Origin: Candidatus Methylacidiphilales bacterium | GTDB lineage: Bacteria > Pseudomonadota > Gammaproteobacteria > JASGCS01 | Reading direction: 5' to 3' | DNA: 35,702 nucleotides | NCBI GenBank assembly: GCA_030054035.1 | Contig: JASGCS010000015.1 | Span: forward strand, 1-35,702 | Part shown: positions 191-30,483 of the stretch, piece after piece | How the letters are laid out: the number at the start of each line of letters is the position of its first letter | Position numbering within the stretch: position 1 is the stretch's first letter | Translations under genes and position numbers: made by a program | The notes under the pieces: model-generated | What the model was told of the DNA's origin: nothing | The model's database searches: none | The model's input: only the letters and a program-made list of their open reading frames with translations

Positions 191-943
191 ATGTTCATAG
201 ATTATCCAGGGATTATGCAAGATATAGTATTAGAGTTAAACATATTTAGATGGTTACATGTTTTAGCGATGGCTTGGTGGTTAGGTGGAGAATGGGGAGT
301 GTTTCATGCTTCTACCAATGTTGCAAATAGCAATCTAAATATTGATGAACGCAAAAGAGCGTTAGCGGTTGGTTTTCAAATTGACATTCTGCCTCGCAGT
401 ATGATTCTAGTGTTACCACTGCTTGGTATTCACATGGCAGCACTGCATGGAATCTCACCGATTACTGGTTATGGATTAATGATTTCATGGATATTTTTTC
501 TCAGTTGGATTGGATTGGTGCTATCAGCTTTTTATTTTAAAGGCACAGCAATGGGATGGAAGTTAACCATGATAGATGAGCGAATTAGATATGTGGTGAT
601 CCCTCTGTTTATAATTATCGGTATCATTGGAGTTACAACAAGATCTTTTCCTAGTCTGACAATTTTTGGAGAAGGAGCTATACTCTTTGAAATGAAAGAG
701 ACAAGTATGTGGTTTGCATTAAAAGTATTATTATTTGGATTATTACTTTGCATTGGACTGGCATTGCGAATTATAATGAGACGGTGGGTAATAGGCTTTC
801 AGCGATTAGCAAAAGAAGGCTCTACCCCAGAGGTTGAATCGTATTTTGCTGGCCCACTTGCGATAGGTAGAAAGTTAGCATATATTTATTGGATGGGTAT
901 TGCAACGGTAGCATTTTTTGGTGTAACAAAAATTATAGTATAA
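191..943 (+). CDS. CopD/DUF2269-like multi-pass inner-membrane protein
   Basis: This 250-residue protein is almost entirely hydrophobic, with about six to seven likely membrane helices. Its first helix carries FRWLHVLAMAWWLGGEWG, a His followed by a W-W-x-G-G signature like that at the start of CopD/HemJ/DUF2269-type membrane proteins, where the His (H23 here) can bind haem or metal. The start is supported by AAAAGGAG eight bases upstream. It lies 17 bases before hyuA and seems to be the first gene of the four-gene operon ending at 5485. Its role is unknown. It could be a permease-like or redox partner for the ring-opening enzymes. The family placement rests on motif resemblance only. Confidence 0.6.
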   Translation: MFIDYPGIMQDIVLELNIFRWLHVLAMAWWLGGEWGVFHASTNVANSNLNIDERKRALAVGFQIDILPRSMILVLPLLGIHMAALHGISPITGYGLMISWIFFLSWIGLVLSAFYFKGTAMGWKLTMIDERIRYVVIPLFIIIGIIGVTTRSFPSLTIFGEGAILFEMKETSMWFALKVLLFGLLLCIGLALRIIMRRWVIGFQRLAKEGSTPEVESYFAGPLAIGRKLAYIYWMGIATVAFFGVTKIIV

Positions 944-960
944 CAAAAGGAGAAATAGAT

Positions 961-3021
961 ATGGCGTATAGATTAGGCGTAGATGTTGGTGGAACTTTCA
1001 CCGATCTTTTATTAATTAATGATGATACTGGGCAGACTTGGACAGCAAAACTTCCATCTACTCCTAGCGATTCATCACTTGGGGTTTTACAAGGCATAGC
1101 TCAAATTTGCGAAACTTCGGGAGTTTCACCTAAAGAAATTACCCGAGTGATGCATGGCACCACGGTCGCCACCAATGCAGTGCTAACTGGGAAAGGTTCA
1201 GTAGTAGGATTAATCACTACTTCTGGTTACCGTCACACGCTTCAGGTTGCAAGATCATTTTGTCCAGGAGGGCTTGGTGGGTGGGCTAGTTATATTAGAA
1301 AACCTCTTTTAGCTCCATTGGAACATACGTTTGAAGTTTCTGAAAGAATAGATGCTTCAGGAAAAATTCTAATTAAGTTAAATACCAAAGAGCTTACTTC
1401 AATACTGAACACCATGAAAAAGCAAGGCGGGATTCAAGCACTGACGATTTGCTTTATCAATTCTTACATTAATCCCAGCCATGAAAAAGAAGCAAAAAAA
1501 ATCGCTGAGAAAATTTTAAAAAACATACCGGTCTCAATCTCTTCTGAGGTGGTGCCTGAAATGCAAGAATATGAAAGAACAGAAACAACGGTGATCAATT
1601 CCTATGTGCGGCCAGAAGTGGAAAAATATGTGCATAACTTACAAACCAATATTTCTAAATCACTCGGTGAGTCTTCACAACTTGCCATTCTTCGTTCAGA
1701 CGGAGGTTTGGCCACTGCTCGTGCCGCTCAAGTGTCTCCAGTAAATTTATTAATGTCTGGACCTGCAGGAGGTGTGGCTGGAGCATTGTATTTTTGTAAT
1801 GCGGCTGGATTTAAAAATGTACTTACCTTTGATATGGGTGGAACTTCTACTGATGTGGCGTTAATTCAAAATGGAGAAGCCAAACAAAGAAGAGAGACTA
1901 GAGTTGGTGATGTCGTGGTTAGAGCCCCATCTGTCGATGTGCGTTCAGTTGGTGCAGGTGGTGGTTCGGTTGCCTATGTGGCAAATATTACCAATGCGCT
2001 TAGAGTTGGCCCTGAATCAGCAGGAGCGTCGCCTGGTCCAGCCGCATACAACAAAGGAGGTATCAAAGCCACAGTAACTGACGCGAATGTAGTGCTAGGA
2101 TACTTACCTGCAAATGTACTCCTAGGCGGAAAAATGAAAATTGACAAAGAGCTGGCAAAAAAAGCTGTCCAGGAAATAGCTACCCCATTAGGGATATCTC
2201 TCATGGACGCTGCAGATGGCATAATTAGAATTGTTAATGAATCAATGTTTGGAGCATTACGATTAGTCTCGATTGAACAGGGTTATGACCCTCGTGATTT
2301 TGCCTTAGTGGGATTTGGTGGTGCAGGTCCACTCCATTCCAACGCACTTAGTATCTTGTTAAACAGCTGGCCATCCATCGTGCCACCAGGACCAGGGGTG
2401 CTATGCGCCTATGGAGACGCTACCACAGCAGTACAAGATGAAGCGAGTAAAAGTGTGGTTTCCAGTATGGATGCCATGGAGCTTTCATTCTTATTAAAAG
2501 AATTAGATATTTTAGAGAAAAAAGTATCGCATTCGCTTGAACAAGATGGAATACCCGCTAATAATCAAATTTTAGAATATCATGCAGATATCAGATATGC
2601 TGGACAAGCGTTTGAAATCACCCTGCCCTTTAATCGTAAAGCGCTTGAGCAGGAAGGGATCAAACACTTAACTGGTAGATTTAATCTAGAGCATGAACAA
2701 TTGTTTACCTTTTCACTTCCCCATGGTCATGAACTGGTAATGATCAGAGTAAAAGCCATGGCAAAAAGAACAAAAACTCCAATCTATCAAATCGGAAAAC
2801 GAGGAAATAAATTATCTGACGCACTGATGAGCGAGTCACCTGCATGGTTTGCTGGCAAAGAAGTGGCCACGAAACTTTACAATCGTAACCTATTAGATGT
2901 TGGGCATAGAATTGAAGGTCCAGCAATTATAATTGAAATGGATTCCACTACAGTAATTCATCCTGGTTTTAATGCCCAGGTTGATAGCGTTGGGAATTTA
3001 CTAATTAACCCAAACAAGTAA
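961..3021 (+). CDS. hyuA: Hydantoinase/oxoprolinase family protein, subunit A (HyuA-like)
   Basis: This is the ATP-binding subunit of the hydantoinase/oxoprolinase/acetone carboxylase superfamily. From the ATG at 961 it is 686 residues, the usual size. The start is supported by AAAAGGAG at 945-952; an in-frame ATG at 889 lies inside the previous gene and is rejected. Both ASKHA-type phosphate-binding loops are visible: GVDVGGTFTD at residues 6-15 and DMGGTSTD near 291-298, preceded by MSGPAGGVAG. The family opens cyclic amides (hydantoins, 5-oxoproline) using ATP, or carboxylates ketones, together with subunit B. The isochorismatase-fold enzyme downstream favours N-methylhydantoinase-like ring opening, which is inference. 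Confidence 0.92.
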   Translation: MAYRLGVDVGGTFTDLLLINDDTGQTWTAKLPSTPSDSSLGVLQGIAQICETSGVSPKEITRVMHGTTVATNAVLTGKGSVVGLITTSGYRHTLQVARSFCPGGLGGWASYIRKPLLAPLEHTFEVSERIDASGKILIKLNTKELTSILNTMKKQGGIQALTICFINSYINPSHEKEAKKIAEKILKNIPVSISSEVVPEMQEYERTETTVINSYVRPEVEKYVHNLQTNISKSLGESSQLAILRSDGGLATARAAQVSPVNLLMSGPAGGVAGALYFCNAAGFKNVLTFDMGGTSTDVALIQNGEAKQRRETRVGDVVVRAPSVDVRSVGAGGGSVAYVANITNALRVGPESAGASPGPAAYNKGGIKATVTDANVVLGYLPANVLLGGKMKIDKELAKKAVQEIATPLGISLMDAADGIIRIVNESMFGALRLVSIEQGYDPRDFALVGFGGAGPLHSNALSILLNSWPSIVPPGPGVLCAYGDATTAVQDEASKSVVSSMDAMELSFLLKELDILEKKVSHSLEQDGIPANNQILEYHADIRYAGQAFEITLPFNRKALEQEGIKHLTGRFNLEHEQLFTFSLPHGHELVMIRVKAMAKRTKTPIYQIGKRGNKLSDALMSESPAWFAGKEVATKLYNRNLLDVGHRIEGPAIIIEMDSTTVIHPGFNAQVDSVGNLLINPNK

Positions 3022-3040
3022 TTATAGGAGGACACAACAC

Positions 3041-4897
3041 ATGACAAATAAAAATAAAGTAATCTCTACAAACAATCTTCCATTTCAAAAAGTTACTGTT
3101 GATTCAGTCACAGTTGATATTATTGAAAACGCCTTACGAAATGTTCGTGAAGAAATGGACACGGTTTTATTCAGAACCGCGATGAGTCCAGGTATTCGTG
3201 AACAGGGTGACTGTTTTCCCATGGTAGCAAACTCCGAGGGAAAAATGGTGGTTGGACAATTTGGTTCTTTTATTCATGGATTTTTGAATAACTATAAAGG
3301 CACTATTGAGGAAGGCGATATTATTCTCACCAATGACCCCTACGCGGTTGAAGCTGCGGTAAGTCATTTACCTGATTGGACGATCCTAATGCCAATCTAC
3401 CGAGAAGGACGACATGTAGCATGGTCAGCCATGTTTGGTCATATGTCAGATAACGGAGGAATGGTACCAGGCAGTATCCCAATCAAAGCAGAAACCATCT
3501 ATCAAGAAGGCATTAGAATCCCTCCAAGTAAACTCTATAAAAAAGGTGTCTTTCAAGAAGAACTCTTTGAATTAATTCTAAACAATGTTAGAACACCACA
3601 ATGGAATCGCTTTGATCTAAACGCACTGGTGGCCGCTTGTCGAACCGCAGGAAAACGATGTAATGAAATCATTGATAGGTTTGGCGTTGATGTATTTGTA
3701 ACTACCATGAATCTTATGCTCGAAAGAAATCTTAAAGCAATGGCTCCAATTATTCAGATGGCAATTCCAGAAAAACCTTTTGTCTTTGAAGACTATCTCT
3801 GCGATGATGGCATGGGTAAAGGTCCTTATAAGGTTGCGTGTAAAGTATGGAGAGAGAAAGATAAATGTATTTTTGATTTTGAAGGTACTGATCCACAAGC
3901 CAACAGCTCAGTAAATTTTTATCTGAGTGAAGCAATGTTTAAGATGTTTTTTGGCTCTATCTTTATCAACCAAATCGACCCACAAATTCCGTTTAACGAT
4001 GGATTTTACGATCTCGTTGAAGTGCGCATACCAGAAGGTAGCTTGCTTAAACCAAAATTTCCAGCTGCCCTTTCAGGTCGCACCCACCTGATTGGAAGAA
4101 TCTTTGATGTCATGGGCGGTATGTTAGGTCAAGGCCTTCCAGAGAAATTCCTAAACGCTGCTGGATTTTCAGATAGCCCGCATCTCTTTTTCTCAGGGTA
4201 TGACAAAAAAGGTAAATGGTTTCAGCTTTTCCAAATTGGATTTGGAGGTATTCCCGGCCGTCCAATTGGAGATGGTCCTGATGGTCATTCGCTTTGGCCA
4301 AACTTTACCAATGTCCCAAATGAATTTATTGAGGCGTTTTTTCCACTGCGCATTGAAAAATATCAACTTATCCCAGACTCTGGTGGGGCTGGTCTACATC
4401 GCGGAGGTAACGGATTAAATGTTGTTTATCGTTTCCTTGTCGATGGAAAAATTGGTGTTCATGATGACCGGTGGCTTACCTACCCATGGGGAGTGCTTGG
4501 TGGAGAACCAGGCATGAGATCTGCCAAAATCCTCGTACGCAAAAACGGTAAAAAAGAATACCTGCCCGCTAAATGTGACGAAGTGGTGGTTAAAGAAGGA
4601 GATTGTCTCCACTTTAATACTTGGGGTGGTGGAGGTTGGGGCGATCCATACCAAAGAGACGCATCACTCGTACTCAGCGATGTTATGAAAGGTTTGGTAA
4701 CTATCAAGGGTGCTCTTCGCTATGGTGTGGTTATTAAGGGTAAAGCTCTAGATCTAAAAGCCACGGCAGCCTTAAGGACAAAACTTAAAAAGAAACGCGG
4801 CAAACCATCTCTATTCAATCGAGGCTTTAAAAATCTCCAGGAACTGCGCGCAAGGGCTAAAAAAGAAACAATGTTAGATGCCCCAATCGCACCGTAA
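3041..4897 (+). CDS. hyuB: Hydantoinase/oxoprolinase family protein, subunit B (HyuB-like)
   Basis: This 618-residue partner of HyuA has the hydantoinase B hallmarks. The N-terminus binds at ALRNVREEMDTVLFRTAMSP, followed by GDIILTNDPY, HLPDWTILMP and FGHMSDNGG, and the C-terminal glycine-rich WGGGGWGDPYQRD. It is slightly longer than many HyuB proteins because of a basic tail after the GDP motif. AGGAGG lies about nine bases before the ATG and 19 bases separate it from hyuA, so the two are co-translated. With subunit A it should form the cytoplasmic ATP-dependent amidohydrolase, or a carboxylase. Substrate cannot be read from the sequence. Confidence 0.92.
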   Translation: MTNKNKVISTNNLPFQKVTVDSVTVDIIENALRNVREEMDTVLFRTAMSPGIREQGDCFPMVANSEGKMVVGQFGSFIHGFLNNYKGTIEEGDIILTNDPYAVEAAVSHLPDWTILMPIYREGRHVAWSAMFGHMSDNGGMVPGSIPIKAETIYQEGIRIPPSKLYKKGVFQEELFELILNNVRTPQWNRFDLNALVAACRTAGKRCNEIIDRFGVDVFVTTMNLMLERNLKAMAPIIQMAIPEKPFVFEDYLCDDGMGKGPYKVACKVWREKDKCIFDFEGTDPQANSSVNFYLSEAMFKMFFGSIFINQIDPQIPFNDGFYDLVEVRIPEGSLLKPKFPAALSGRTHLIGRIFDVMGGMLGQGLPEKFLNAAGFSDSPHLFFSGYDKKGKWFQLFQIGFGGIPGRPIGDGPDGHSLWPNFTNVPNEFIEAFFPLRIEKYQLIPDSGGAGLHRGGNGLNVVYRFLVDGKIGVHDDRWLTYPWGVLGGEPGMRSAKILVRKNGKKEYLPAKCDEVVVKEGDCLHFNTWGGGGWGDPYQRDASLVLSDVMKGLVTIKGALRYGVVIKGKALDLKATAALRTKLKKKRGKPSLFNRGFKNLQELRARAKKETMLDAPIAP

Positions 4898-5485
4898 GTG
4901 GATTTAGAAAAAAAGTCTCTGCCGTTTGGTAATCATCCAGCATTACTCGTTATAGATGTAATGAAAGGATTCACTGACACAAATTGCTCGCTAGGATCTC
5001 CAGCAGATCAAGTCGTGGCTAACTGTCAAGAATTGCTTTCACTGTTTAGAGTAAAACAATTACCCATTTGTTTTACTAGAGTAATCTACACCAACGATCA
5101 CGAGGCTTCAGTATTTCGTTCCAAGGTACCTGCCTTGGCTGAACTTAAACAAGGCTCTCCTTGGAATGAGATAGATCATAGACTGGTCGTAGAGAAAGAA
5201 GATTTTATCTTAATCAAAAAATGGGCGAGTGCTTTTTTTGCCACTCACCTTCCCCAATGGTTAATCGCTAATCAGGTTGACTGCATTATCCTAACTGGGT
5301 TATCTACCAGTGGCTGCGTCAGAGCAACTGCTGTTGATGGTCTGCAACATAACTATCCAGTTTTTGTTGTCTCAGACGCCTGCGGAGATAGAAACACTGA
5401 AGCGCATCTCGCTAACCTTCATGACATGCAAGCAAAATATGGCGAGGTTGTTACCGTAGCAAAAATTAAACAGTTATTACAATAG
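4898..5485 (+). CDS. Isochorismatase-fold cysteine amidohydrolase, N-carbamoylsarcosine amidase-like
   Basis: This 195-residue protein starts at a GTG directly abutting the hyuB stop codon. The cysteine-hydrolase triad of the family is visible: D20 in LLVIDVMKGF, K107 in IKKWASAFFATHL, and C140 in TGLSTSGCVRATA. The family includes N-carbamoylsarcosine amidase, nicotinamidase, ureidoacrylate hydrolase and isochorismatase. Coupling to hyuA and hyuB points to N-carbamoylsarcosine amidase, which in creatinine/N-methylhydantoin degradation acts just after N-methylhydantoinase to release sarcosine, CO2 and ammonia. Assignment to this fold is firm; the exact substrate is inferred from context. Confidence 0.85.
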   Translation: MDLEKKSLPFGNHPALLVIDVMKGFTDTNCSLGSPADQVVANCQELLSLFRVKQLPICFTRVIYTNDHEASVFRSKVPALAELKQGSPWNEIDHRLVVEKEDFILIKKWASAFFATHLPQWLIANQVDCIILTGLSTSGCVRATAVDGLQHNYPVFVVSDACGDRNTEAHLANLHDMQAKYGEVVTVAKIKQLLQ

Positions 5486-11338: not shown

Positions 11339-11363
11339 TTTTTTTACTTACCTATCTACTCCT

Positions 11364-11380
11364 CTTGTATCTTATACAAG
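11364..11380. promoter_or_regulatory. Candidate operator: perfect 7-3-7 inverted repeat between receptor and GH31 operon
   Basis: CTTGTAT-CTT-ATACAAG is a perfect dyad in the 150-base divergent spacer between the TonB receptor (-) and GH31 (+). A second short palindrome, AGTATATACT, lies at 11391-11400. Its position suits a repressor or activator controlling both directions, but no regulator gene is in the window. Confidence 0.5.
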
Positions 11381-11450
11381 ATTGATAATAAGTATATACT
11401 ATTAATAAAACTTTTTGGTGATAATAATAAAAAAATAGATACAGGAATTT

Positions 11451-13511
11451 ATGGAAAAAAATGGACTTTGTAATATCAGCGAAGCTATGGCTTGGGATGA
11501 AATAGGCGCAATTTCTATCAAAGGAGTTAAGGTGGTAGGGACATGCCTTGAGCTAACTATGGTAGATGGGGGGGTGTTATCTGTTGCATTCTCGGGTGGC
11601 GGTCTTCGTTTAAAAATTGGTACGGGTATTAATTGGGGAATAATCTCTGGTGAATTGCAAGTAGTTAGTGGTACTCTTCGTTTAGTTGAGGGTGGTTGTA
11701 TTTATGAAAGCAGTTCAGGGGTAGTTGAGATAGGTTTTTCTCCATTTAACTTTAAATATATTGTAGATGGAAAAATAGTACAACAAAGTGGGGTGGATGG
11801 TCATTTTTCTAGAACATTTAGAGTGCCTCCGCTTAGTCGGGTAGATGGGGCGTGGATTTTAAGTTTGAATTTAGTTGAAGGTGAGGGGGTGTATGGTTTA
11901 GGGGAGAAATGGGGCGCTCTGAATCATAGAGGCAGTCTAGTACGAAGTTGGAATGAAGATGCACTTGGGGTTAACGCTGAGATAAGTTATAAAAATATTC
12001 CATTTTGTTTTGGCACTGCAGGTTGGGGGTATTTTGTTCATGGGGGAAGCCCTGTAACCCATGCAGTTGGTTATGGCATGTGGAGCCATAGATGCATTGT
12101 GGCAGCGGTAGAGAGTGATGTACTAGATATATTTTTGTTTGCTGGAAGTGGTGCAGAAATAATTAATAAATATTGTAGGTTAACAGGATTTGCTCAGAAG
12201 CCACCACTATATAGTTTAGGGGTGATTATGTCAAGAGCATATTATCGCACCCATGAAGAAATTGTAAAAGTAGCAAAAGAAATTAGAGAAAAGAAGTTCC
12301 CTTGTGATGTAATCACCTTTGATGGAAGGGCATGGCAAGATACTCGGACGAGATTTTTGTTTGAATGGGATCCGGCTAGGTACCCAAGCCCGAGTACCGT
12401 AGTAGATGAACTGCGTGCCTTAGATTTTGAGGTTTGTAATTGGGAGTATCCATTAGTTTCAATTCACAATCCTCGCTTTGCAGAACTAGAAAGCAAAGGA
12501 TATTTTCTTAAGGATGGTAGAACAGGAAAGACCTATATTCATCAATGGGGTGATGCGCCTTGGGGTTCGGTACTGACTCCTCTAGAACCTTCTGCTTTAA
12601 TTGATTTTACCCATCCTCTTGCTTATGAGTTTTGGAAAATGGAACATAAGCATATTTTTAACGCAGGAGTCGTGATGCTAAAGCCTGATTTTGGAGAACA
12701 AGTCCATGAGGATGTTATCGCAAGCAATGGAATGAGTGGAAAAGAATTACACAATGTCTATGCCTTTTTATACAATCGCTGTTGTTGGGAAGCCAGTAAA
12801 ATGTTTGCTGGTGAAAAAGCCTTTATGTTTAGCCGATCTGGTTGGAGTGGCTCCCAACGATTCCCCTCACTGTGGGGAGGTGATCCGCAAGCAGACTTTG
12901 GGGGATTAGCTGGAAGTATCCGCGGTTCATTGTCTTGGGGATTGAGTGGTGGTCCATTTTTCGCAACTGATATAGGTGGTTTTTATGGAGACACTCGCGA
13001 TAGCGAACTATATATACGGTGGTGTCAAATGGCAGTTTTTAGCGCACATATGAGATTCCATGGCATAGGTGAACGAGAGCCATGGAGTTATGGCGACGAG
13101 GTGTTTAGGGAAATAATGTCCTTAGTGCAATTGCGTTATCGGTTAATTCCATATTTACAACAATGTATTGAGTTATCTTGCGATACTGGATTGCCCGTGC
13201 AAAGAGCTATGGTTCTAGCCTTTCCTGAAGATCCACTAGCTTGGCAATTTGATACTCAGTTTTTATTTGGCCCTTCGCTTTTAGTTGTTCCATGTATTCA
13301 CAAAGGTGGAAATGTTACTTTCTACCTACCAAAAGGAAATTGGTCACGATTTCCTACGCACGAACAATTTGAAGGTGCTAAATTATATAGTATGAATTTA
13401 AGCGTACATGAATATCTAGTCTTTGTCAAGGCTACAGCTACCATTCCACTTGGAAAAGACATTGAGCATGTTGGGGAAGGAATAACCATAGTAGAGCACT
13501 GGCAAGGGTGA
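11451..13511 (+). CDS. Glycoside hydrolase family 31, YicI-like alpha-glycosidase
   Basis: This 686-residue enzyme lacks a signal peptide and should be cytoplasmic. The retaining GH31 active site is clear: nucleophile D413 in MLKPDFGE and acid/base D478 in LWGGDPQADFGG. Flanking motifs include FEWDP, SRSGWSGSQRFP, LSGGPFFATDIGGF, HMRFHG and PYLQQ. Spacing and motifs fit YicI, an alpha-xylosidase (D416 and D482), better than eukaryotic-type alpha-glucosidases, but specificity is not settled. An N-terminal beta-sandwich precedes the barrel. CAGGA lies just upstream of the ATG. It leads a six-gene operon with the TRAP transporter, so it probably hydrolyses the imported glycoside. A run of seven G at 11568-11574 lies near the start of the coding region. 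Confidence 0.93.
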   Translation: MEKNGLCNISEAMAWDEIGAISIKGVKVVGTCLELTMVDGGVLSVAFSGGGLRLKIGTGINWGIISGELQVVSGTLRLVEGGCIYESSSGVVEIGFSPFNFKYIVDGKIVQQSGVDGHFSRTFRVPPLSRVDGAWILSLNLVEGEGVYGLGEKWGALNHRGSLVRSWNEDALGVNAEISYKNIPFCFGTAGWGYFVHGGSPVTHAVGYGMWSHRCIVAAVESDVLDIFLFAGSGAEIINKYCRLTGFAQKPPLYSLGVIMSRAYYRTHEEIVKVAKEIREKKFPCDVITFDGRAWQDTRTRFLFEWDPARYPSPSTVVDELRALDFEVCNWEYPLVSIHNPRFAELESKGYFLKDGRTGKTYIHQWGDAPWGSVLTPLEPSALIDFTHPLAYEFWKMEHKHIFNAGVVMLKPDFGEQVHEDVIASNGMSGKELHNVYAFLYNRCCWEASKMFAGEKAFMFSRSGWSGSQRFPSLWGGDPQADFGGLAGSIRGSLSWGLSGGPFFATDIGGFYGDTRDSELYIRWCQMAVFSAHMRFHGIGEREPWSYGDEVFREIMSLVQLRYRLIPYLQQCIELSCDTGLPVQRAMVLAFPEDPLAWQFDTQFLFGPSLLVVPCIHKGGNVTFYLPKGNWSRFPTHEQFEGAKLYSMNLSVHEYLVFVKATATIPLGKDIEHVGEGITIVEHWQG

Positions 13512-13999
13512 TGTTGTACTACTTAAAATTATTCAACCATCGCATGTCCGTACTTTGTTTATGGACCGGAGTGGTTGCCTTAGTAATTATGGTCCTTTCT
13601 ATCACGGTATTGGTTTTACTTCGCTACACCATTCAGTATTCACCTCGGATCAGTGAAGACTTAAGCAAATTTATGATGGTACTGTTTACTTATTTATTTT
13701 CTCCCTATGTTTACCGAGAACATCTCCATAGTGGCATGGAAATGCTTATAGAGTCTTGGTGGCCTTGGTTTCAACATTTCGTCAAATTACTATTACATTG
13801 TTTAGTAGTTGTTTTAGCTTTATTTTTACTTAACACTGGAATTGAATTTTATAATAATGGAGCAACGTTAATTAATCCAACTTTTAATATCACCAATAAT
13901 TATTTTTATTGGGTCGTGCCAGCATCATTTCTCTTATTAATTCCAGTCGCAATTGAATTAGCTATTGACGAATATACATTATTGCGGAGTTCATTATGA
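13508..13999 (+). CDS. dctQ: TRAP transporter small membrane subunit DctQ
   Basis: This 163-residue protein has four predicted membrane helices and the typical DctQ region RISEDLSKFMMVLFTYLFSPYVYREHLHSGMEM, here shortened, in which the family has (R/E)-x-x-x-(R/E)-H. DctQ pairs with DctM to carry substrates by a sodium gradient. The GTG at 13508 overlaps the GH31 stop by four bases and an ATG follows immediately at 13511; either may be used. Its order Q-M-P after GH31 is compact and clearly one operon. Confidence 0.88.
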   Translation: MMLYYLKLFNHRMSVLCLWTGVVALVIMVLSITVLVLLRYTIQYSPRISEDLSKFMMVLFTYLFSPYVYREHLHSGMEMLIESWWPWFQHFVKLLLHCLVVVLALFLLNTGIEFYNNGATLINPTFNITNNYFYWVVPASFLLLIPVAIELAIDEYTLLRSSL

Positions 14000-15279
14000 G
14001 TTTTGTGTTTATTTGGATTTTTATACTTTTGATGGCATTCGGAATGCCGATCGCGATAGTATTATTATGCGCACCATTACTTAGTTTAATTTGGGATGGG
14101 CAAAGTGATTTTTTTGTCGCGCTGGTCTCTAGAATGTACCATGGAATAAATTCTTTTCCGCTTATGGCTGTGCCTTTTTTTGTCTTAGCTGGTGAGCTCA
14201 TGAACCTCGGCGGGGTGAGCAATTCCATTATTGCGTTATCAAGAGCCTTACTTGGTCACTTACGCGGCGGAATTCTCCATATCAGCGTTATGTCATCAGT
14301 ACTTTTTGCAGGCTTAACTGGATCTGCGGTTGCTGAAGCGAGTGCCTTAGGCAAAGTTATGATACCAATTATGGAAAAAGAAGGGATTGGAAAACGATTT
14401 GGCGCTGCCTTAGTTATAGCTGGAGCAATCATAGGTCCAATCATCCCTCCTTCTGGACTGATGATTCTTTATAGCTATGTTATGAATTTAAATGTGGCGG
14501 CCTTGTTTGCCGGTGGGATTATCCCTGGTTTATTAATGGGTATTGCGCTCACCATTTACAATGTGATTATTGCACGGGTAAGAAACTATCCAGCCAACGC
14601 CACTCGCGCGAGCATTCGTGAAATCTGGGCGGCTTTTAAGGAATGTATCCTACCACTCATGATGCCAATCATAATTATTGTTGGGGTACTCTCAGGAGTG
14701 TTTACGATTACCGAATCTTCAGTGATTGCAGTGATCTATGTGCTACTCATTACGCTTTTTAGAAATCCGACTTCGCTACGCGAACTGCCTCAAGCACTAG
14801 CAAGCACGGTTAGGCAATCTAGCGTAATTTTATTTTTAGTTGGAGCTGCAGTAAGTTTTGGTTGGTTGGTAACCGTCTCTGGAATGGCTGAATTTCTCTC
14901 TAAATTTGTTACCGAGTCTTCTACAAATATTTATATGTTACTATTTATATTTAATATACTTTTATTGGGTATTGGTATGTTTTTAGATGCAGGACCAGCA
15001 ATTCTCATCCTAGGTCCAGCATTAGGGCCTACTTTTGTGGAGCATGGTGTTCACCCGGTTCAGTTTGCAATTATTATGTGTGTAAATCTATCTATTGGAC
15101 TAGCAACACCTCCAGTTGGATTAGTTTTTAATTCGGTATGTTCATTAACAAAAATCAAGTTAGAAGAAATGGTTCGGGAATTACTCCCCCTCTTAGGAAT
15201 TGAAATCCTAGTGGTGTTTTTAATAACGTACATACCCGAACTTACCTTATGGATACCAAGAACTTTTAATTTACTCTAA
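13996..15279 (+). CDS. dctM: TRAP transporter large permease subunit DctM
   Basis: This 427-residue protein has about 12 membrane helices and the characteristic DctM motifs: FVLAGELMNLGGVSN, LFAGLTGSAVAEASALGKVM, GPIIPPSGLMILYS and ATPPVGLVFN. It is the substrate-translocating channel in the inner membrane. Its ATG overlaps the dctQ stop codon in ATGA. The length is normal for the family. DctM subunits are usually paired with substrate-binding proteins that bind carboxylates, including uronates and sugar acids. Confidence 0.95.
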   Translation: MSFVFIWIFILLMAFGMPIAIVLLCAPLLSLIWDGQSDFFVALVSRMYHGINSFPLMAVPFFVLAGELMNLGGVSNSIIALSRALLGHLRGGILHISVMSSVLFAGLTGSAVAEASALGKVMIPIMEKEGIGKRFGAALVIAGAIIGPIIPPSGLMILYSYVMNLNVAALFAGGIIPGLLMGIALTIYNVIIARVRNYPANATRASIREIWAAFKECILPLMMPIIIIVGVLSGVFTITESSVIAVIYVLLITLFRNPTSLRELPQALASTVRQSSVILFLVGAAVSFGWLVTVSGMAEFLSKFVTESSTNIYMLLFIFNILLLGIGMFLDAGPAILILGPALGPTFVEHGVHPVQFAIIMCVNLSIGLATPPVGLVFNSVCSLTKIKLEEMVRELLPLLGIEILVVFLITYIPELTLWIPRTFNLL

Positions 15280-15281
15280 CA

Positions 15282-16328
15282 ATGACGCCCCGCCTTACTA
15301 TCATTTTAAGATTACTGAGTGTGGTGATCGTTACTGTATGTATATATTTTATTTCTCAATCACTATTTACGGAAAGTAAAAAAATAATCAAGATCGCTTT
15401 TCTTGGTTCTAAAAATGATGAAGATTATTTTGGTTCGTTGGCCTTTAAAGAAACCGTAGAACGAATAAGTGGTGGAAAAATCTCCGTACTGATATATCCT
15501 TCTGGACAATTTTGTGGGAACGAACAAGAATGTGTAGAAGGGCTCAGGGCTGGGACATTAGAAATACACATGACGACTTTTGGATTTCTCAGTGCGTTTT
15601 ATCCACCGGCAATTGCCATTGACTTTCCGTACATATTAAACGATGATACACAAGCTGAATGTGTGTTTCAAGGTGAGCTCGTTGATAGCTTGCGCGACAA
15701 AGTGTTAGCCAATAAATCTAACATACGGCTAATGACGATTGGAAATACCGGAGGTTGGAGGGCGTTTGCAAATAACAAACGGCCGATTACTAACTACGAT
15801 GATTTTTCTGGACTTAAGTTTCGTGTCATTTCATCTGATTTACATTTTCAATTTATTCGCGCGCTCTCCGCCAGTCCAACTCCAGTCCCATGGTCCGAGC
15901 TCTATACCGCAGTTTCAGAAGGTGTGGTAGATGGGACAAACAACAGTCTTCCGGATCTCGTCAGTGTTAATCTACATAAATCACTCAAATATTATTCAGT
16001 TGATAATAATCAATATATGGGTGCGCTGTGGTGGTATTCAGAGAAAAAATGGAATGGGCTTAGCGCCACAGAGCAAGAATGGGTTGAGCAAGGTTTCACC
16101 GCTTTGAGACTTGCCACGATTAACCTGCCGAAAAAAAATCTTAGCGATAGTATCACTACCATTGAGCGTGTGGGCGGGACAATCAATTTTATTACTCAAA
16201 TTGAACGAGAGAAAATCAAGTCAAAGATACTTCCGGTGCTCTACCAATGGTATCGCTCGCAATTTTCATCAGAATGGCTAGATCGATTTGAAAAAATAGT
16301 CGCATCTTGCCCATCAGAAGTGCGATAA
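15282..16328 (+). CDS. dctP: TRAP transporter substrate-binding protein DctP, membrane-anchored
   Basis: This 348-residue protein starts with a hydrophobic helix (about residues 5-27) and no obvious cleavage site, so it may stay anchored. The DctP fold follows: FKETVERISGGKISVLIYPSGQ, then DFSGLKFRVISS, with the Arg that usually binds the ligand carboxylate, and ELYTAVSEGVVDGTNNS. The retained Arg favours an acidic ligand such as a uronate or sugar acid, which fits poorly with a plain neutral glycoside and is worth noting. It starts three bases after dctM. The product name is firm; the ligand is unknown. Confidence 0.93.
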   Translation: MTPRLTIILRLLSVVIVTVCIYFISQSLFTESKKIIKIAFLGSKNDEDYFGSLAFKETVERISGGKISVLIYPSGQFCGNEQECVEGLRAGTLEIHMTTFGFLSAFYPPAIAIDFPYILNDDTQAECVFQGELVDSLRDKVLANKSNIRLMTIGNTGGWRAFANNKRPITNYDDFSGLKFRVISSDLHFQFIRALSASPTPVPWSELYTAVSEGVVDGTNNSLPDLVSVNLHKSLKYYSVDNNQYMGALWWYSEKKWNGLSATEQEWVEQGFTALRLATINLPKKNLSDSITTIERVGGTINFITQIEREKIKSKILPVLYQWYRSQFSSEWLDRFEKIVASCPSEVR

Positions 16329-16337
16329 TATTACCTT

Positions 16338-17999
16338 GTGATTTTTTCGCGTGTAACCTCTCTACTAAAAGGCAGGCAGATGCCTTTTTGGGCTATCTTT
16401 CTGATTTTTGTATGCTATTGCTCAATTACATTGAGCATTCCTTCGTTAGTTCTTTACGATCATTTTGCCACTAGGTTTCCAGACCAAGATAATGTATTCT
16501 CACGCATTCTGTATTATCTAGTAATTTTTCTCTACCAGGTTTTTTTCCTTTGGGTGTTATTATTACATAGGTGGTGGTTCAGAATTATGGCAATAATTCT
16601 GGTAGTACTGGGTGCGATACATTACACTTTTACTAATTACTACGGGGTTTGCGTCGACCAGGATATGATCCACAATATCCTTAATACCAATGTCCATGAA
16701 GTAACAGAACTATTTACACCTGGACTGATCTGGAATATTATAATTTTTGCATTACCGGCTGTGGTACTGTTATTACTAGTTCGTATAACTCCTGTATCAG
16801 GATGGCGATGGTGGGTCGGAGTACTCATGACGCCTGTGCTATCATTTTTGCTCCTGATTGTAATACTCTATGGACTACCAAGTAATATTAAAGATGTGAT
16901 CTTTTCGGTAAAGGGTCAGATTAACTGCACTCTGTTTCCAGCAAATAGTATCGTAGGAAGTATAAGAAATATCAGAGACTGGCAAGAACGAAGGGCAATA
17001 GAACGCACCCCTCGCGCACCTATTGATGCGGCAGCAACTATACGCAGTGAGGATTCACAATTACCCCTTTTAGTAGTATTGGTAATTGGTGAGACCGCAC
17101 GAGCAAAAAATTACTCGCTCAATGGCTACGAGAGAGAAACCAATCCTCTCTTGCGCAGTGAAGATATTATTAACTATCCACATGCATCATCATGTGGTAC
17201 CTACACACTATTATCTGTGCCATGTATATTTTCGCCAAAAGCAAACCCTGAGTCATACAAGCGCAATAACTTATTTTCTCAAGAAAACGCACTTCAATTT
17301 TGGCAACGGCTTGGAATTTCAGTACAATGGGTGGCAAATAACTCAATAATCCCTGCATTGATGAAAGATATTCCAAACCAGAAGGTTTCGTCTAAACTCT
17401 ACCAAACTTCAGCCTGTATAAGAAACGCATGTTACGATGAAGTTTTTGTGGAAGATCTTACCAAAAGATTATCTCAATCCCTACCCAAACGACATTCATT
17501 GTTGGTGTATCATTTGCTTGGTAATCATTTTGCTTATGAATCAAGAGTTCCTAAAAACTTTAAATATTTCACCCCAATATGCAAACCAGATAAATTTTCA
17601 TCTTGCTCGCCACAAGAAATACTTAATAGCTATGATAACGCCATACGATACAATGACTATGTGCTAGCTCAATTAATTGCTACACTTCGTTCTCACGATA
17701 ATAAAACTCAATCTATACTACTGTACACTTCAGATCATGGTGAGTCGCTTGGAGAACGAGGTATCTGGTTTCATGGTCTTCCCTATAGCATCGCCCCAAA
17801 AGAACAAACCCATGTTCCATTGATGTTCTGGATGAGCAAATCTTTCCGAAGTAAAAAACCTCAGCGCTATCAGTGCCTTAAAGAAAAATCTTCTACGCTG
17901 CAGGTAAGCCATGAATTCATTTTCCATACCTTAGTAACTATTTTTTCAATTGCTACGAAGCGTTACTCAAAACCACATGATTTATTGGCCTCATGTTAA
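16338..17999 (+). CDS. Phosphoethanolamine transferase, EptA family (first copy)
   Basis: This 553-residue inner-membrane enzyme has five N-terminal helices (up to about residue 190) and a periplasmic sulfatase-fold domain. Visible metal and nucleophile motifs are VIGETARAKNYSLNGY, CGTYTLLSVPC with catalytic Thr near 290, and YTSDHGESLGE followed by HGLPY and THVPLMFW. Such enzymes transfer phosphoethanolamine from phosphatidylethanolamine to lipid A, which reduces binding of cationic peptides. The start is a GTG at 16338 without a good Shine-Dalgarno; an ATG at 16380 (preceded by AAGGCAGG) is an alternative. It lies nine bases after dctP, apparently in the same operon. Confidence 0.93.
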   Translation: MIFSRVTSLLKGRQMPFWAIFLIFVCYCSITLSIPSLVLYDHFATRFPDQDNVFSRILYYLVIFLYQVFFLWVLLLHRWWFRIMAIILVVLGAIHYTFTNYYGVCVDQDMIHNILNTNVHEVTELFTPGLIWNIIIFALPAVVLLLLVRITPVSGWRWWVGVLMTPVLSFLLLIVILYGLPSNIKDVIFSVKGQINCTLFPANSIVGSIRNIRDWQERRAIERTPRAPIDAAATIRSEDSQLPLLVVLVIGETARAKNYSLNGYERETNPLLRSEDIINYPHASSCGTYTLLSVPCIFSPKANPESYKRNNLFSQENALQFWQRLGISVQWVANNSIIPALMKDIPNQKVSSKLYQTSACIRNACYDEVFVEDLTKRLSQSLPKRHSLLVYHLLGNHFAYESRVPKNFKYFTPICKPDKFSSCSPQEILNSYDNAIRYNDYVLAQLIATLRSHDNKTQSILLYTSDHGESLGERGIWFHGLPYSIAPKEQTHVPLMFWMSKSFRSKKPQRYQCLKEKSSTLQVSHEFIFHTLVTIFSIATKRYSKPHDLLASC

Positions 18000-19648
18000 G
18001 ACCATTTTTTAAACCACTTTCTCCACTGGTACTTGTACTAGGGGTAAATTTATACTTTGTACTTGTACTAAGCGCTCCAATTTTTTCACAATTCACCAGG
18101 CTATTTCCTGTGGCTGGAAATGGGATTGAGGGATATGCTCGGTTGGGGTTGTTTGGCATTTCTGCATTTTTTTATAATGTAATATTTATCTGGTTCTGCT
18201 ATTGGCCAATGCTTTGGTTGAGAATAACGCTAGCTGGTTTATTTGTCTTGGGTGGATTTATTGATTATTACACATCGGTCTTTGGAATCTGCATAGATAA
18301 AACTATGATTGCCAATGCGTTTAATACCGATGTAAATGAAACCTTGGAACTTCTCCATGCTGGGGCGTTAATTAATACATTTCTATTTGGCATATTGCCA
18401 GCTATTTTTATATTGCTAGTGCCAATTCAACAGGTTACCAATAAAAATAAATTACTAACCATGGCTCTCCTTCCCATACTTTCATTGGTGCTGGTTATTG
18501 GTGTATTGCTAATTCCAGTCGGCGCCCATCGTATGTTTCATGTTATTCTCTCAGCCACAGGTACATTGAGTTGCGCACTCTACCCTTCTAATGTAATTAA
18601 TAGCAGTATCCGTCATGGAATTTCAGGCATTGAAGAGTTTTGGTTGTCATTCACTACTAAAGAAGTTACCGCACCTGATGCACAGGTAAAAAATCTTCAC
18701 AGCAACACCCTGCCAACAGTAATGATACTGGTAATTGGGGAAACTGCACGAGCAAAAAGTTACTCGCTTAATGGCTATCCTCGAGCAACTAACCCCTATC
18801 TGAGCAAACAATCTGTAATTAGCTTTACCAATGCAAGTTCATGTGGTACCCAGACTATTATCTCGGTACCCTGTATTTTTTCAGAATTTGGAAACCATAG
18901 ACAGTATCGCTCAACCTATCTATACACCAATGAAAATCTTCTCCATGTGCTCATGCGAGTGGGGGTTTCAGTATTTTGGCTTAGTAATAATTCCATATTT
19001 AAACGATTACTCTATGACATTCCTCATGCTAAATTTGGTAATCATCCCTCTTACCCATGTATAGCTATTGGATGTTACGACCAGCAATTTATTAGTGATC
19101 TTAAGGTAAGAATGCAGTCAATTAAACAGCAATCCTCCTCTGCTTTGCTGGTGTACCATCTCTACGGAAGTCATTTTGATTATGATTCTAGAACTCCACA
19201 AGAGTTTAAGCAGTTCAATCCGATTTGCCCTAAAGGAAGTTTTTCCACTTGTAGCGTAGAACAAATTACCAATAGTTACGATAGTACTATTCTCTATAAC
19301 GATTATGTGCTTGCTCACTTAATTGAAGAACTTAAACCATACACTAACAGCGTCGCATCGGTGTTACTGTACACTTCAGATCACGGAGAGTCGCTCGGCG
19401 AACAAGGTAACTTTGCCCATGGACTTCCCTATAGCTATGCACCAGTTGAACAGACTAATGTTCCTTTTATACTGTGGTATTCAAAATCATTTGAGCAGTC
19501 AAGAAAAATTGACCTGGGATGTCTAAACAAAAAAATCGCAAGTCCAATATCTCACCAAAATATCTTCCACACTACTTTTTGGATATTTGGTATTGAATCA
19601 AAGTCTTGGCAACCTGACTTAAATATTTTTAACTGCGCTGTGCAATAG
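17993..19648 (+). CDS. Phosphoethanolamine transferase, EptA family (second copy)
   Basis: This 551-residue protein is a paralogue of the previous gene and overlaps it by seven bases. Motifs are VIGETARAKSYSLNGYPRA, CGTQTIISVPC with catalytic Thr at about 288, and YTSDHGESLGEQGNFAHGLPY. The N-terminal five-helix part is diverged from the first copy, while the catalytic motifs are almost the same, which fits an old tandem duplication. The two may differ in target site (for example 1- versus 4'-phosphate) or in conditions of use, which cannot be read here. Its 3' end overlaps the convergent citrate synthase gene by 20 bases. Confidence 0.93.
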   Translation: MLRPFFKPLSPLVLVLGVNLYFVLVLSAPIFSQFTRLFPVAGNGIEGYARLGLFGISAFFYNVIFIWFCYWPMLWLRITLAGLFVLGGFIDYYTSVFGICIDKTMIANAFNTDVNETLELLHAGALINTFLFGILPAIFILLVPIQQVTNKNKLLTMALLPILSLVLVIGVLLIPVGAHRMFHVILSATGTLSCALYPSNVINSSIRHGISGIEEFWLSFTTKEVTAPDAQVKNLHSNTLPTVMILVIGETARAKSYSLNGYPRATNPYLSKQSVISFTNASSCGTQTIISVPCIFSEFGNHRQYRSTYLYTNENLLHVLMRVGVSVFWLSNNSIFKRLLYDIPHAKFGNHPSYPCIAIGCYDQQFISDLKVRMQSIKQQSSSALLVYHLYGSHFDYDSRTPQEFKQFNPICPKGSFSTCSVEQITNSYDSTILYNDYVLAHLIEELKPYTNSVASVLLYTSDHGESLGEQGNFAHGLPYSYAPVEQTNVPFILWYSKSFEQSRKIDLGCLNKKIASPISHQNIFHTTFWIFGIESKSWQPDLNIFNCAVQ

Positions 19649-28035: not shown

Positions 28036-30246
28036 TTACAAGCCTATTGAACAGATGACCTTAATACTAAGCGTAGCAACAATATCATCTTCAACACAAT
28101 CAAAACTTATTAAACCATCAATCTTAATAGAGCCAACTAAATCATATAAAAGCTGACTAATAAATCCTTCGTAATGTTTTGCTTTATTATTTTTGATAGT
28201 GTAAGTAATGTATTTATTTCCTGGAGTAGTGACTGTAGTATTTTTTTGAGCATACACAAGGAGTGGTCTATTTGCAGTTCCAATATCACCTTGAGCCTGA
28301 AGAATCAATTTACCAACTCTAATAACAGCAGTAGATGGTAAAACATTACCAATCGTTCCACCTGATATAAGGGTGAAACTATTTGTACTCGTTGAAGTAA
28401 TTGAACTAAGAATACTAATATCTCTATCAGCATGAAGCTCTACATTATTTGAAGCAAGTTCTCCAACCAGATCATAAGTGGATCTGAATGTAACATTCGG
28501 TAAGACATACAGATATGTAGAACCTCTGTTTAATGAAACACCATAGGCACCGATGAGGGCGTAGGTGGAGTTTAGTGCGACTGAATCGCCAAAGTATGAA
28601 TTAGATGCTAGGGAGGTGATGGGTTGGTCTGCGGTAATAGATAGGTCTGTCCATGTACCTGATGAGAGATTGTAGAGATAGGTATTGCCTCTGTTTGTTG
28701 AAACACCATAGGCGCCGATGAGGGCGTAGGTGGAGTTTAGTGCGACTGAATCGCCAAAGTATGAATTAGATGCTAGGGAGGTGATGGGTTGGTCTGCGGT
28801 AATAGATAGGTCTGTCCATGTACCTGATGAGAGATTGTAGAGATAGGTATTGCCTCTGTTTGTTGAAACACCATAGGCGCCGATGAGGGCGTAGGTGGAG
28901 TTTAGTGCGACTGAATCGCCAAAGTATGAATTAGATGCTAGGGAGGTGATGGGTTGGTCTGCGGTAATAGATAGGTCTGTCCATGTACCTGATGAGAGAT
29001 TGTAGAGATAGGTATTGCCTCTGTTTGTTGAAACACCATAGGCGCCGATGAGGGCGTAGGTGGAGTTTAGTGCGACTGAATCGCCAAAGTATGAAGTAGA
29101 TGCTAGGGAGGTGATGGGATTAGAGATTACTGCACCATCACTAAATCCAATGACGAGTTGTTTAAAGTAGTCATAGGATTCTGGAATGGAGTCTGTGATG
29201 ATGAGATAGTCTGGATCAATGAGGAGGGTGCCTGTTCTACCATTAACTGCAGTGGTGGAGATGGTGGTGTTATGTTGTTTGAGGGTGCCTTTGGTGGAGA
29301 TTTCAATAAATCCACCATTGCCTTGCTGGGTGCTTTGTGCGGTGAAAGTAGCTGAGAGGAGGGTGAGGTTGTTTGTGGCGTTGATGATGATGGTACCTGC
29401 GTTGGAGGGACTGTTGGCATTGATGGTAGCTGAGATAATAGCGGTGTTGTTTGCTTGGATGGTGGTTGAAGGTGCAGTAAGGTTAACGAGATTGGAGAGG
29501 AGGATATTGGTGGCGGTGAGGGAGATGGTGTTAGTGGCAGTGAGGTCTCCTGCATAGGAGAGGTAGTCGGTGGTGGCGGTAATTGATGATGCGGTTATGG
29601 TAGCTGCTCCTACAATGGCGCTGGTAGCGAATAAATCTACTGCGTTGGTTGCGGTGAAGGTGCCATGCAGTGAGATATCATTGGTGGCTTTGATGGAGAT
29701 AGTAGATGAGGTAATGGTGCTGGTATCGGTAGTGGCTATAGTTTTTGCGGTGAGTTGCGTTTTGGTAGTGGTGATGGTGCCGTTAGTGGTAATGGTAGCA
29801 GTAATAAGGGAGGGGTCAATAGTGGTGAGGGTGTTAGTGGTAGAGTTGTAGGTGGTGTTGTTGAGTGAGGTAGCTGCTGCGATAAAGGTATTGGCTGAAA
29901 TAGATGATGATGCGCCGAAGTAGAATCCATTGGCGTTAAGTAATACAATTCTTCCATTCGCAGTAATTGATCCTAGTATCTGTGATGGGTTTTGGTCAAG
30001 AATGTTGTTAATGGTGATGGAGGAGGAGGAAGGTTGGTTAAATACTACTGATTCATTAGTATTGATATTGAAGCTATTCCACTGTAGTATGGCGCTAGTT
30101 GATTGTTGATTGATAGTGGTAGTTTGTGATGCTTGAGATACGGTAGCTTGACCTTCAGTAATGCTAGTATAGGTAGGAAGAGCAAAGGAGATAAAGGGGG
30201 TGAGCGTTGCTAGGAGCACTAAAAAGATATTGACAGATTTTCTCAT
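28036..30246 (-). CDS. TPS-domain (filamentous haemagglutinin-like) exoprotein with FG-GAP-like repeats
   Basis: From the ATG at 30246 this is a 736-residue secreted protein. GGAG lies nine bases upstream; an in-frame ATG at 30342 is rejected since it would bury the signal peptide. Order: a signal peptide ending FALP, a TPS secretion domain (GQATVSQAS, VLLNANGFYFG), then a beta-helix rich in Thr, Ser, Ala and Ile up to GTLLIDPDYLIITD. Four FG-GAP-like units follow (YFGDSVALNSTYALIGAYG), and a 190-residue tail has two Cys in its last 21 residues. TPS proteins are exported by a TpsB partner; none with POTRA domains is in the window. It probably acts as a surface adhesin. Confidence 0.85.
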   Translation of the reverse strand: MRKSVNIFLVLLATLTPFISFALPTYTSITEGQATVSQASQTTTINQQSTSAILQWNSFNINTNESVVFNQPSSSSITINNILDQNPSQILGSITANGRIVLLNANGFYFGASSSISANTFIAAATSLNNTTYNSTTNTLTTIDPSLITATITTNGTITTTKTQLTAKTIATTDTSTITSSTISIKATNDISLHGTFTATNAVDLFATSAIVGAATITASSITATTDYLSYAGDLTATNTISLTATNILLSNLVNLTAPSTTIQANNTAIISATINANSPSNAGTIIINATNNLTLLSATFTAQSTQQGNGGFIEISTKGTLKQHNTTISTTAVNGRTGTLLIDPDYLIITDSIPESYDYFKQLVIGFSDGAVISNPITSLASTSYFGDSVALNSTYALIGAYGVSTNRGNTYLYNLSSGTWTDLSITADQPITSLASNSYFGDSVALNSTYALIGAYGVSTNRGNTYLYNLSSGTWTDLSITADQPITSLASNSYFGDSVALNSTYALIGAYGVSTNRGNTYLYNLSSGTWTDLSITADQPITSLASNSYFGDSVALNSTYALIGAYGVSLNRGSTYLYVLPNVTFRSTYDLVGELASNNVELHADRDISILSSITSTSTNSFTLISGGTIGNVLPSTAVIRVGKLILQAQGDIGTANRPLLVYAQKNTTVTTPGNKYITYTIKNNKAKHYEGFISQLLYDLVGSIKIDGLISFDCVEDDIVATLSIKVICSIGL
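28534..29118 (-). repeat. Near-identical 165-bp tandem repeats (about 3.5 copies)
   Basis: A 165-base unit (55 codons) recurs with a constant period; for example GATGAGGGC occurs at 28552, 28717, 28882 and 29047. The inner copies look identical in DNA and the outer ones differ at single bases (GGCACC for GGCGCC in the first, GAAGTAG for GAATTAG in the last). Each encodes one FG-GAP-like blade and a TYLYNLSSGTWTDL strand. Identity in silent positions shows recent expansion or gene conversion. Confidence 0.95.
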
Positions 30247-30483
30247 AAAAATTCTCCGTGTATAAGTGTATGTGGCGATATATTTACAATGCTTGGCGTA
30301 CCCGATCGGCTGCACCATTAAACATATGAGATTCTTGGTCATCCTAACTTACCGCACTCAAGAATCACACAGGTGATTGATACTTGAATGAGCTGTGTGG
30401 TCGTGCCTCATCGAATATTTGGCACAGTTTTAGGTGTAAGGTCATTTTATTTGCAATAGGTTGTATTTACATTTGTAAGGTGA

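Follow-up and report, generated by a model that had tools for sequence, protein, structure and literature searches.

Gene content of the locus

The stretch of DNA analysed here (the window, 35,702 nucleotides) is contig C15 (JASGCS010000015.1) of a 96%-complete, 1.72 Mb genome of Candidatus Methylacidiphilales bacterium (GCA_030054035.1), which belongs to the class Gammaproteobacteria. Six open reading frames on its plus strand encode a GH31 α-glycosidase, the three subunits of a tripartite ATP-independent periplasmic (TRAP) transporter (dctQ, dctM and dctP) and two EptA-type phosphoethanolamine transferases (eptA1 and eptA2), and a gene for a TonB-dependent outer-membrane receptor diverges from the first of them (Table 1). 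As judged from sequence comparison, the receptor, a candidate operator and GH31-dctQMP quite probably form the uptake-and-hydrolysis half of a regulon for sulfoquinovoside utilization, a module that is widespread in bacteria and apparently undescribed.

Table 1. Features of the receptor-GH31-TRAP-EptA locus, in window coordinates
Feature	Position	Strand	Assignment and remarks
TonB-dependent outer-membrane receptor, 874 amino acids	8676..11300	-	Pfam Plug; divergent from GH31
8-bp inverted repeat TCTTGTAT-CTT-ATACAAGA	11363-11381		candidate operator is its core
Candidate operator TCTTATACAAGA	11370..11381	+	sole copy in the window
Promoter-like TATACA-N16-TATACT	11373..11400	+	overlaps candidate operator; consensus 9/12, weak alone
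GH31 α-glycosidase, 686 amino acids	11451..13511	+	no N-terminal signal segment; Pfam 257 bits (cut-off 23.5)
dctQ, TRAP small membrane subunit	13508..13999	+	Pfam DctQ
dctM, TRAP large membrane subunit	13996..15279	+	Pfam/TIGR DctM
dctP, TRAP substrate-binding protein	15282..16328	+	Pfam DctP; N-terminal hydrophobic segment
eptA1, EptA-type phosphoethanolamine transferase	16338..17999	+	Pfam EptA_B_N + Sulfatase
eptA2, tandem paralogue of eptA1	17993..19648	+	Pfam EptA_B_N + Sulfatase

The six genes had been described in a first-pass annotation, whose coordinates left out the receptor, as one tightly packed run, and their positions, families (assigned with Pfam and NCBIfam) and junction sizes are all borne out. 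In gene order, the first two junctions overlap by 4 bases each, the next two are gaps of 2 and 9 bases and the last is an overlap of 7 bases; the 9-base gap between dctP and eptA1 rests on a GTG start of eptA1 and becomes 51 bases with the ATG at 16380. Within the six-gene run there are 33 promoter-like sites (26.7 ± 5.2 in shuffled sequences) and four terminator-like sites (6.0 in shuffled sequences). Because neither promoters nor terminators inside the run rise convincingly above the shuffles, a single transcript for all six genes is plausible, and a promoter belonging to the transferases, which the same annotation had named as an argument against its view, is not evident.

The GH31 enzyme and its gene neighbourhoods

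The GH31 gene of the operon is the only one found in its genome. Among 369 genomes of the same class, an orthologue with 49-52% identity occurs in four, and the remaining matches are 25-34% identical; no genome of the same order was found among the relatives of the window genome. Queried with DctP alone, the genome collection returned no relative; with the GH31 alignment as query, relatives were found. Scanning GTDB r220 (one genome per species) with the family alignment yielded 124 relatives, and the 80 best named loci were retained, so that the family comparison comprises 81 sequences including that of the window. The window protein is 47-55% identical to the family members in these loci, whose hosts are Paraglaciecola, Glaciecola, Alteromonas, Pseudoalteromonas, Colwellia, Cellvibrionales, Porticoccaceae, Arenicella, Parvularcula, Marinicaulis, Nitrospirillum, one member of the Desulfobacterales and others.

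In 61 of the 80 loci the GH31 gene is surrounded by a catabolic cluster for sulfoquinovose, and the clusters are of two types that never occur together, a dioxygenase type (47 loci) and a sulfo-EMP type (14 loci). All 47 dioxygenase-type loci carry a TauD-family dioxygenase, accompanied in 46 by an aldo/keto reductase and often by a sulfite oxidase, TauE or a YeiH-like exporter. The sulfo-SDO pathway, reported to be typical of Oceanospirillaceae and Alteromonadaceae, is described as a dioxygenase combined with an oxidoreductase (PMC13372026; PMC12890257), and from their context the TauD proteins of the loci would be SqoD. The sulfo-EMP-type loci encode an aldehyde dehydrogenase, an aldolase resembling YihT, an isomerase and a kinase that shares 40-45% identity with E. 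coli YihV. K27 and R138 of the kinase are present in all 14 loci, and N109 is missing only from two closely related sisters; the sole NCBIfam match of the isomerase is sulfoquinovose isomerase SftI (E 5e-91, below the model cut-off). Since the substrate is all that these two non-homologous pathways have in common, the GH31 enzyme, transporter and receptor found with both most likely act on sulfoquinovosides. Furthermore, no second GH31 of the YihQ type is present in the loci except in L112, so that the GH31 of the family is itself the likely sulfoquinovosidase. A glycerophosphate-oxidase-like gene, found in 10 of 84 loci examined, fits glycerol as the aglycone.

Two side observations concern individual loci. 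In L056 (5602-9949) a glycerophosphate-oxidase-like flavoprotein gene directly precedes the GH31 gene and a SulP sulfate permease gene lies in the same cluster, which fits the handling of glycerol and sulfate. The deepest members of the GH31 family are those of L112 (8223-14553) and L115 (9950-12148), and that of L112 adjoins an ATP-binding cassette sugar transporter and a second GH31.

These neighbourhoods also bear on the first-pass proposal that the substrate is an acidic glycoside of the carboxylate kind. Its anionic character is retained, and the comparison of the 80 loci points to a sulfonate, sulfoquinovose, in place of a carboxylate. That the module serves a hexuronide, an α-linked glucuronide or galacturonide, is very unlikely. 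Several of the closest solved relatives of DctP do bind sugar acids or sialic acid, and in one locus (L033 7733-18465, genome G364) a distant GH31 occurs with a TRAP transporter, GH2, UxaC and UxuA; however, identity to the window proteins is low there (24-27% for the GH31 and 26-37% for the TRAP proteins), and the GH31 family of the window is accompanied by sulfoquinovose genes, not by uronate genes. With its glucuronate isomerase and mannonate dehydratase, L033 appears to be an independent pairing of GH31 and TRAP, for hexuronides.

By its catalytic residues the window protein is assigned to the GH31 retaining α-glycosidases: D413 and D478 align with the catalytic nucleophile and acid/base of YicI (D416/D482) and YihQ (D405/D472). 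Ten residues, K411, D413, D478, D291, G292, R293, W295, T300, R301 and F302, do not vary among the 81 members, and the window protein thus fits the family signature GR-x-W...T-R-F plus K411, D413 and D478. The predicted model (pLDDT 89) has YicI as its nearest solved structure, at 29% identity, and K414, D416, D482, D306, W345 and H540 of YicI are conserved. An ordinary α-xylosidase or α-glucosidase operon of the YicI type, which the best PDB and NCBIfam similarities would suggest, is nevertheless highly improbable. First, the protein scores 390 bits against the NCBIfam α-xylosidase equivalog, whose cut-off is 606. Second, C307, F308, W315 and F277 of the xylose pocket of YicI are replaced by G292, A294, R301 and Y264. 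Third, the partner genes are for sulfonates, not xylose. The protein is also shorter than YicI (686 amino acids as opposed to 772), and the invariant R293 and R301, which YicI lacks at the aligned positions, count in favour of the sulfoquinovoside reading.

With the YihQ-type sulfoquinovosidases the window enzyme shares the GH31 fold, both catalytic Asp residues, the proposed reaction and the association with sulfo-EMP and other sulfoquinovose pathways, but it is nearer to YicI in sequence and fold and has the invariant R293 and R301 in its loop. The sulfonate-binding set of YihQ, which we take to be Q288, R301, W304 and Y508 (E. coli numbering), is aligned with D291, R299, F302 and F511, and R299 occurs in only two of the 81 family members; the alignment of the R293-R301 loop to YihQ is uncertain, as two alignments disagree. 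The residues being unmatched, this set was dropped as proof of a sulfoquinovosidase. By its residues, then, the enzyme is classed neither as a typical α-xylosidase nor as a canonical sulfoquinovosidase, and its family as distinct from the YihQ type; we propose that it is a sulfoquinovosidase of a YicI-like, non-YihQ type.

Transporter, receptor and candidate operator

As inner-membrane partner of GH31, the relatives encode either a TRAP transporter (26 loci) or a sodium symporter (41 loci) and never both (p 1e-11). The GH31-dctQ-dctM-dctP order of the window recurs in many TRAP loci, including those of Paraglaciecola, commonly as GH31-Q-M-P-receptor, and the TRAP proteins belong to one clade; the GH31-TRAP part of the run is thus a conserved unit, as had been suspected. 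DctM is 47-53% and DctP 33-43% identical to their counterparts in the sulfoquinovose-type loci, and DctQ 25-31% identical to the DctQ encoded at the same place in relatives. In trees with E. coli YiaN/YiaO and uronide-type TRAP proteins as outgroups, DctM and DctP of the window fall within the sulfoquinovose-type clade (SH-aLRT 98% and 100%, respectively), where DctP nests with those of the sulfo-EMP-type loci.

The three subunits and the conserved Arg identify dctQMP at the sequence level as a DctP-type TRAP transporter, and the predicted DctP model (pLDDT 91) has the fold of TRAP binding proteins. R181, which aligns with the 'GLKIR' motif of solved TRAP proteins, and the group-specific C78 and C84 are kept in 26 of 26 DctP proteins. 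The first-pass annotation was correct that DctP retains the binding Arg, but this residue is present in 96.8% of the TRAP binding-protein family and can bind sulfonate as well as carboxylate (PMC4646407), and it was for its ubiquity dropped as evidence on the ligand. The literature searched describes how TRAP transporters take up small sulfonates, and no description of TRAP uptake of sulfoquinovose was found in it. The small-sulfonate transporters (IseP for isethionate and the putative sulfolactate transporter DctPQM2) resemble that of the window in DctP family, anion-binding Arg and sulfonate ligands; their ligands are C2-C3 sulfonates, whereas a C6 sulfosugar or its glycoside is proposed here, and the window DctP belongs to a subfamily of its own with C78 and C84. 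On contig C1 the genome has a second TRAP system, whose neighbours are unrelated genes and for which no link to the module was established.

The receptor gene starts 150 bp from the GH31 gene on the opposite strand. At E<=1e-60 it has matches in only five other genomes of the 369, namely the four with the GH31 orthologue and G166 (co-occurrence p about 1e-10), and it is assigned to the module as its outer-membrane step. The G166 locus (L172 8543-17128) combines the receptor with TRAP, sulfoquinovose-isomerase-like, YihV-like and GntR genes and the operator and lacks the module GH31, which suggests a cluster version for free sulfoquinovose, or one with a different glycosidase.

The upstream regions of the relatives' loci have in common a palindrome, TCTTATAyAAGA. 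In 83 loci, 131 of its 132 copies lie no more than 420 bp upstream of cluster genes (46 before the receptor, 37 before the aldo/keto reductase, 34 before GH31 and 14 before GntR), so that it links the receptor, GH31, reductase and GntR units, and no copy is found in 652 kb of control DNA from other loci. Each of the two orphan-receptor loci (L172 and L173) has one copy. In the window a single copy separates the divergent receptor and GH31 genes, against 0.023 copies expected from base composition for a window and 1e-4 for 150 bp; a shuffle control allowed one mismatch and is hence laxer. Many of the loci with the palindrome belong to related species and do not count as independent cases, but the window represents a distant lineage. 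Most of the relatives' loci include a gene for a GntR/UTRA regulator, which is likely to be the protein that binds the candidate operator.

The EptA pair, the proposed pathway and its significance

EptA1 and EptA2, the only two EptA proteins found in the genome, both appear catalytically intact, with a membrane N-domain and a sulfatase-like domain whose catalytic Thr and metal ligands are present; the motifs GET, CGT, SDHGESLGE and HGLPY, aligned with E. coli EptA, are kept in both. They share domain make-up and catalytic motifs with the EptA/MCR-type transferases, from which they differ in forming a tandem pair within a catabolic operon. Because the two share 42-43% identity, as opposed to 29-37% with their best full-length matches in the 369 genomes, they look like a lineage-specific tandem duplication. 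The first-pass annotation had suggested a functional link between uptake and the two transferases, and this part of its view is not supported: no eptA match (E<=1e-3) occurs in any of the 80 GH31 loci, nor does GH31, TRAP or a TonB receptor occur in 18 eptA regions of other genomes, and in Paraglaciecola the position behind dctP is occupied by the TonB receptor. This lack of synteny in relatives is one of the two findings that the annotation had itself named as refuting its view. That GH31, TRAP and the EptA pair are one envelope-linked system, coupling sugar uptake to lipid A charge, is therefore very improbable, even though the genes are tightly co-linear with no visible internal promoter, and the origin of the pair by duplication within the lineage speaks against it as well. 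The comparison classes the pair as a local addition to the transcript, probably co-transcribed with GH31-dctQMP and, as far as it reaches, a passenger, and joint function with uptake as unsupported.

Around the operon, the stop ends of eptA2 and of a convergently oriented citrate synthase gene share 20 bp (19629-19648). A single run at 889-5485 on the plus strand consists of hydantoinase/oxoprolinase A and B genes and an isochorismatase-like gene. On the minus strand, a secreted-protein cluster (28036-30342 and 30484-35557) encodes one protein with a two-partner-secretion domain and FG-GAP repeats, a 1069-amino-acid S8 peptidase and a 631-amino-acid protein without a Pfam match. The window has no Rfam match.

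Sulfoquinovosyl glycerol is the deacylated head group of the photosynthetic sulfolipid of plant and algal membranes. In the preferred reading, the TonB receptor would bring this compound or another α-sulfoquinovoside across the outer membrane, DctP would bind it through the anion-binding R181, and DctQM would import it with sodium. In the cytoplasm, the retaining GH31, with D413 as nucleophile and D478 as acid/base, would then free sulfoquinovose and glycerol. A regulator of the GntR/UTRA type, with its gene elsewhere in the genome, would act at TCTTATACAAGA between the divergent units, and the two EptA enzymes, appended to the transcript in this lineage, would act independently and most likely place phosphoethanolamine on lipid A.

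Several observations weigh against the sulfoquinovoside reading. The YihQ sulfonate set is unmatched at Q288, W304 and Y508. The window GH31 branches just outside the sulfoquinovose-linked members (98% support for the enclosing group), and GH31, DctM and DctP all have long branches. DctP deviates at 14 of 65 positions conserved in other members, and its ligand may have shifted in this lineage. Moreover, neither the sulfo-SDO set (SqoD and reductase) nor the sulfo-EMP set (isomerase, sulfofructose kinase and sulfofructose phosphate aldolase) was found complete in the 96%-complete genome: SqoD-, YihT- and SqvD-like queries gave no match at E<=1, where sulfo-TK/TAL was covered only through the SqvD-like isomerase query and the search did not extend to sulfo-ED, sulfo-SMO or the regulator. 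The YihV query retrieved nothing but a kinase domain with 25% identity, in a 482-amino-acid frame on contig C4; this PfkB match was rejected as a sulfofructose kinase for its glycosyltransferase-like neighbours and taken as a heptose kinase.

The same divergence and missing catabolic genes would be expected if the module, ancestrally for sulfoquinovosides, had shifted in this reduced genome to another anionic α-glycoside. This seems unlikely, since both the operator and the active site of GH31 are preserved at the compared positions, all three transport and hydrolysis parts co-evolve, and the fast evolution of a small genome could by itself yield such divergence. A broader proposal, which we regard as tentative and somewhat doubtful, builds on the sulfoquinovoside reading: a second, independent kind of GH31 sulfoquinovosidase (derived from YicI and with its own Arg pair), a TRAP transporter for C6-sulfosugar glycosides and a dedicated TonB receptor would make up one operator-defined regulon serving two unrelated sulfoquinovose pathways, and the import module would persist here without either of them, the cell taking only the glycerol aglycone or degrading sulfoquinovose by an unrecognised route.

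The production of sulfoquinovose is estimated at 10 billion tons a year (PMC10755693), and its uptake by marine Gammaproteobacteria has so far been poorly described. The clusters of the relatives resemble the sulfo-SDO (SqoD/SquF) systems of these bacteria in having genes for a TauD dioxygenase, for an aldo/keto reductase and for the handling of sulfite beside GH31; the window genome differs in giving no SqoD-like match, and a TRAP importer or TonB receptor is unmentioned in the sulfo-SDO descriptions found. If the sulfoquinovoside reading is true, the module supplies three missing parts, namely an outer-membrane receptor, a TRAP importer and a non-YihQ sulfoquinovosidase, and its 12-bp operator would allow further members, including unknown sulfoquinovose enzymes, to be found by a pattern search. 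The GH31 genes named 'alpha-xylosidase' in Alteromonadales and their relatives are then probably misnamed.

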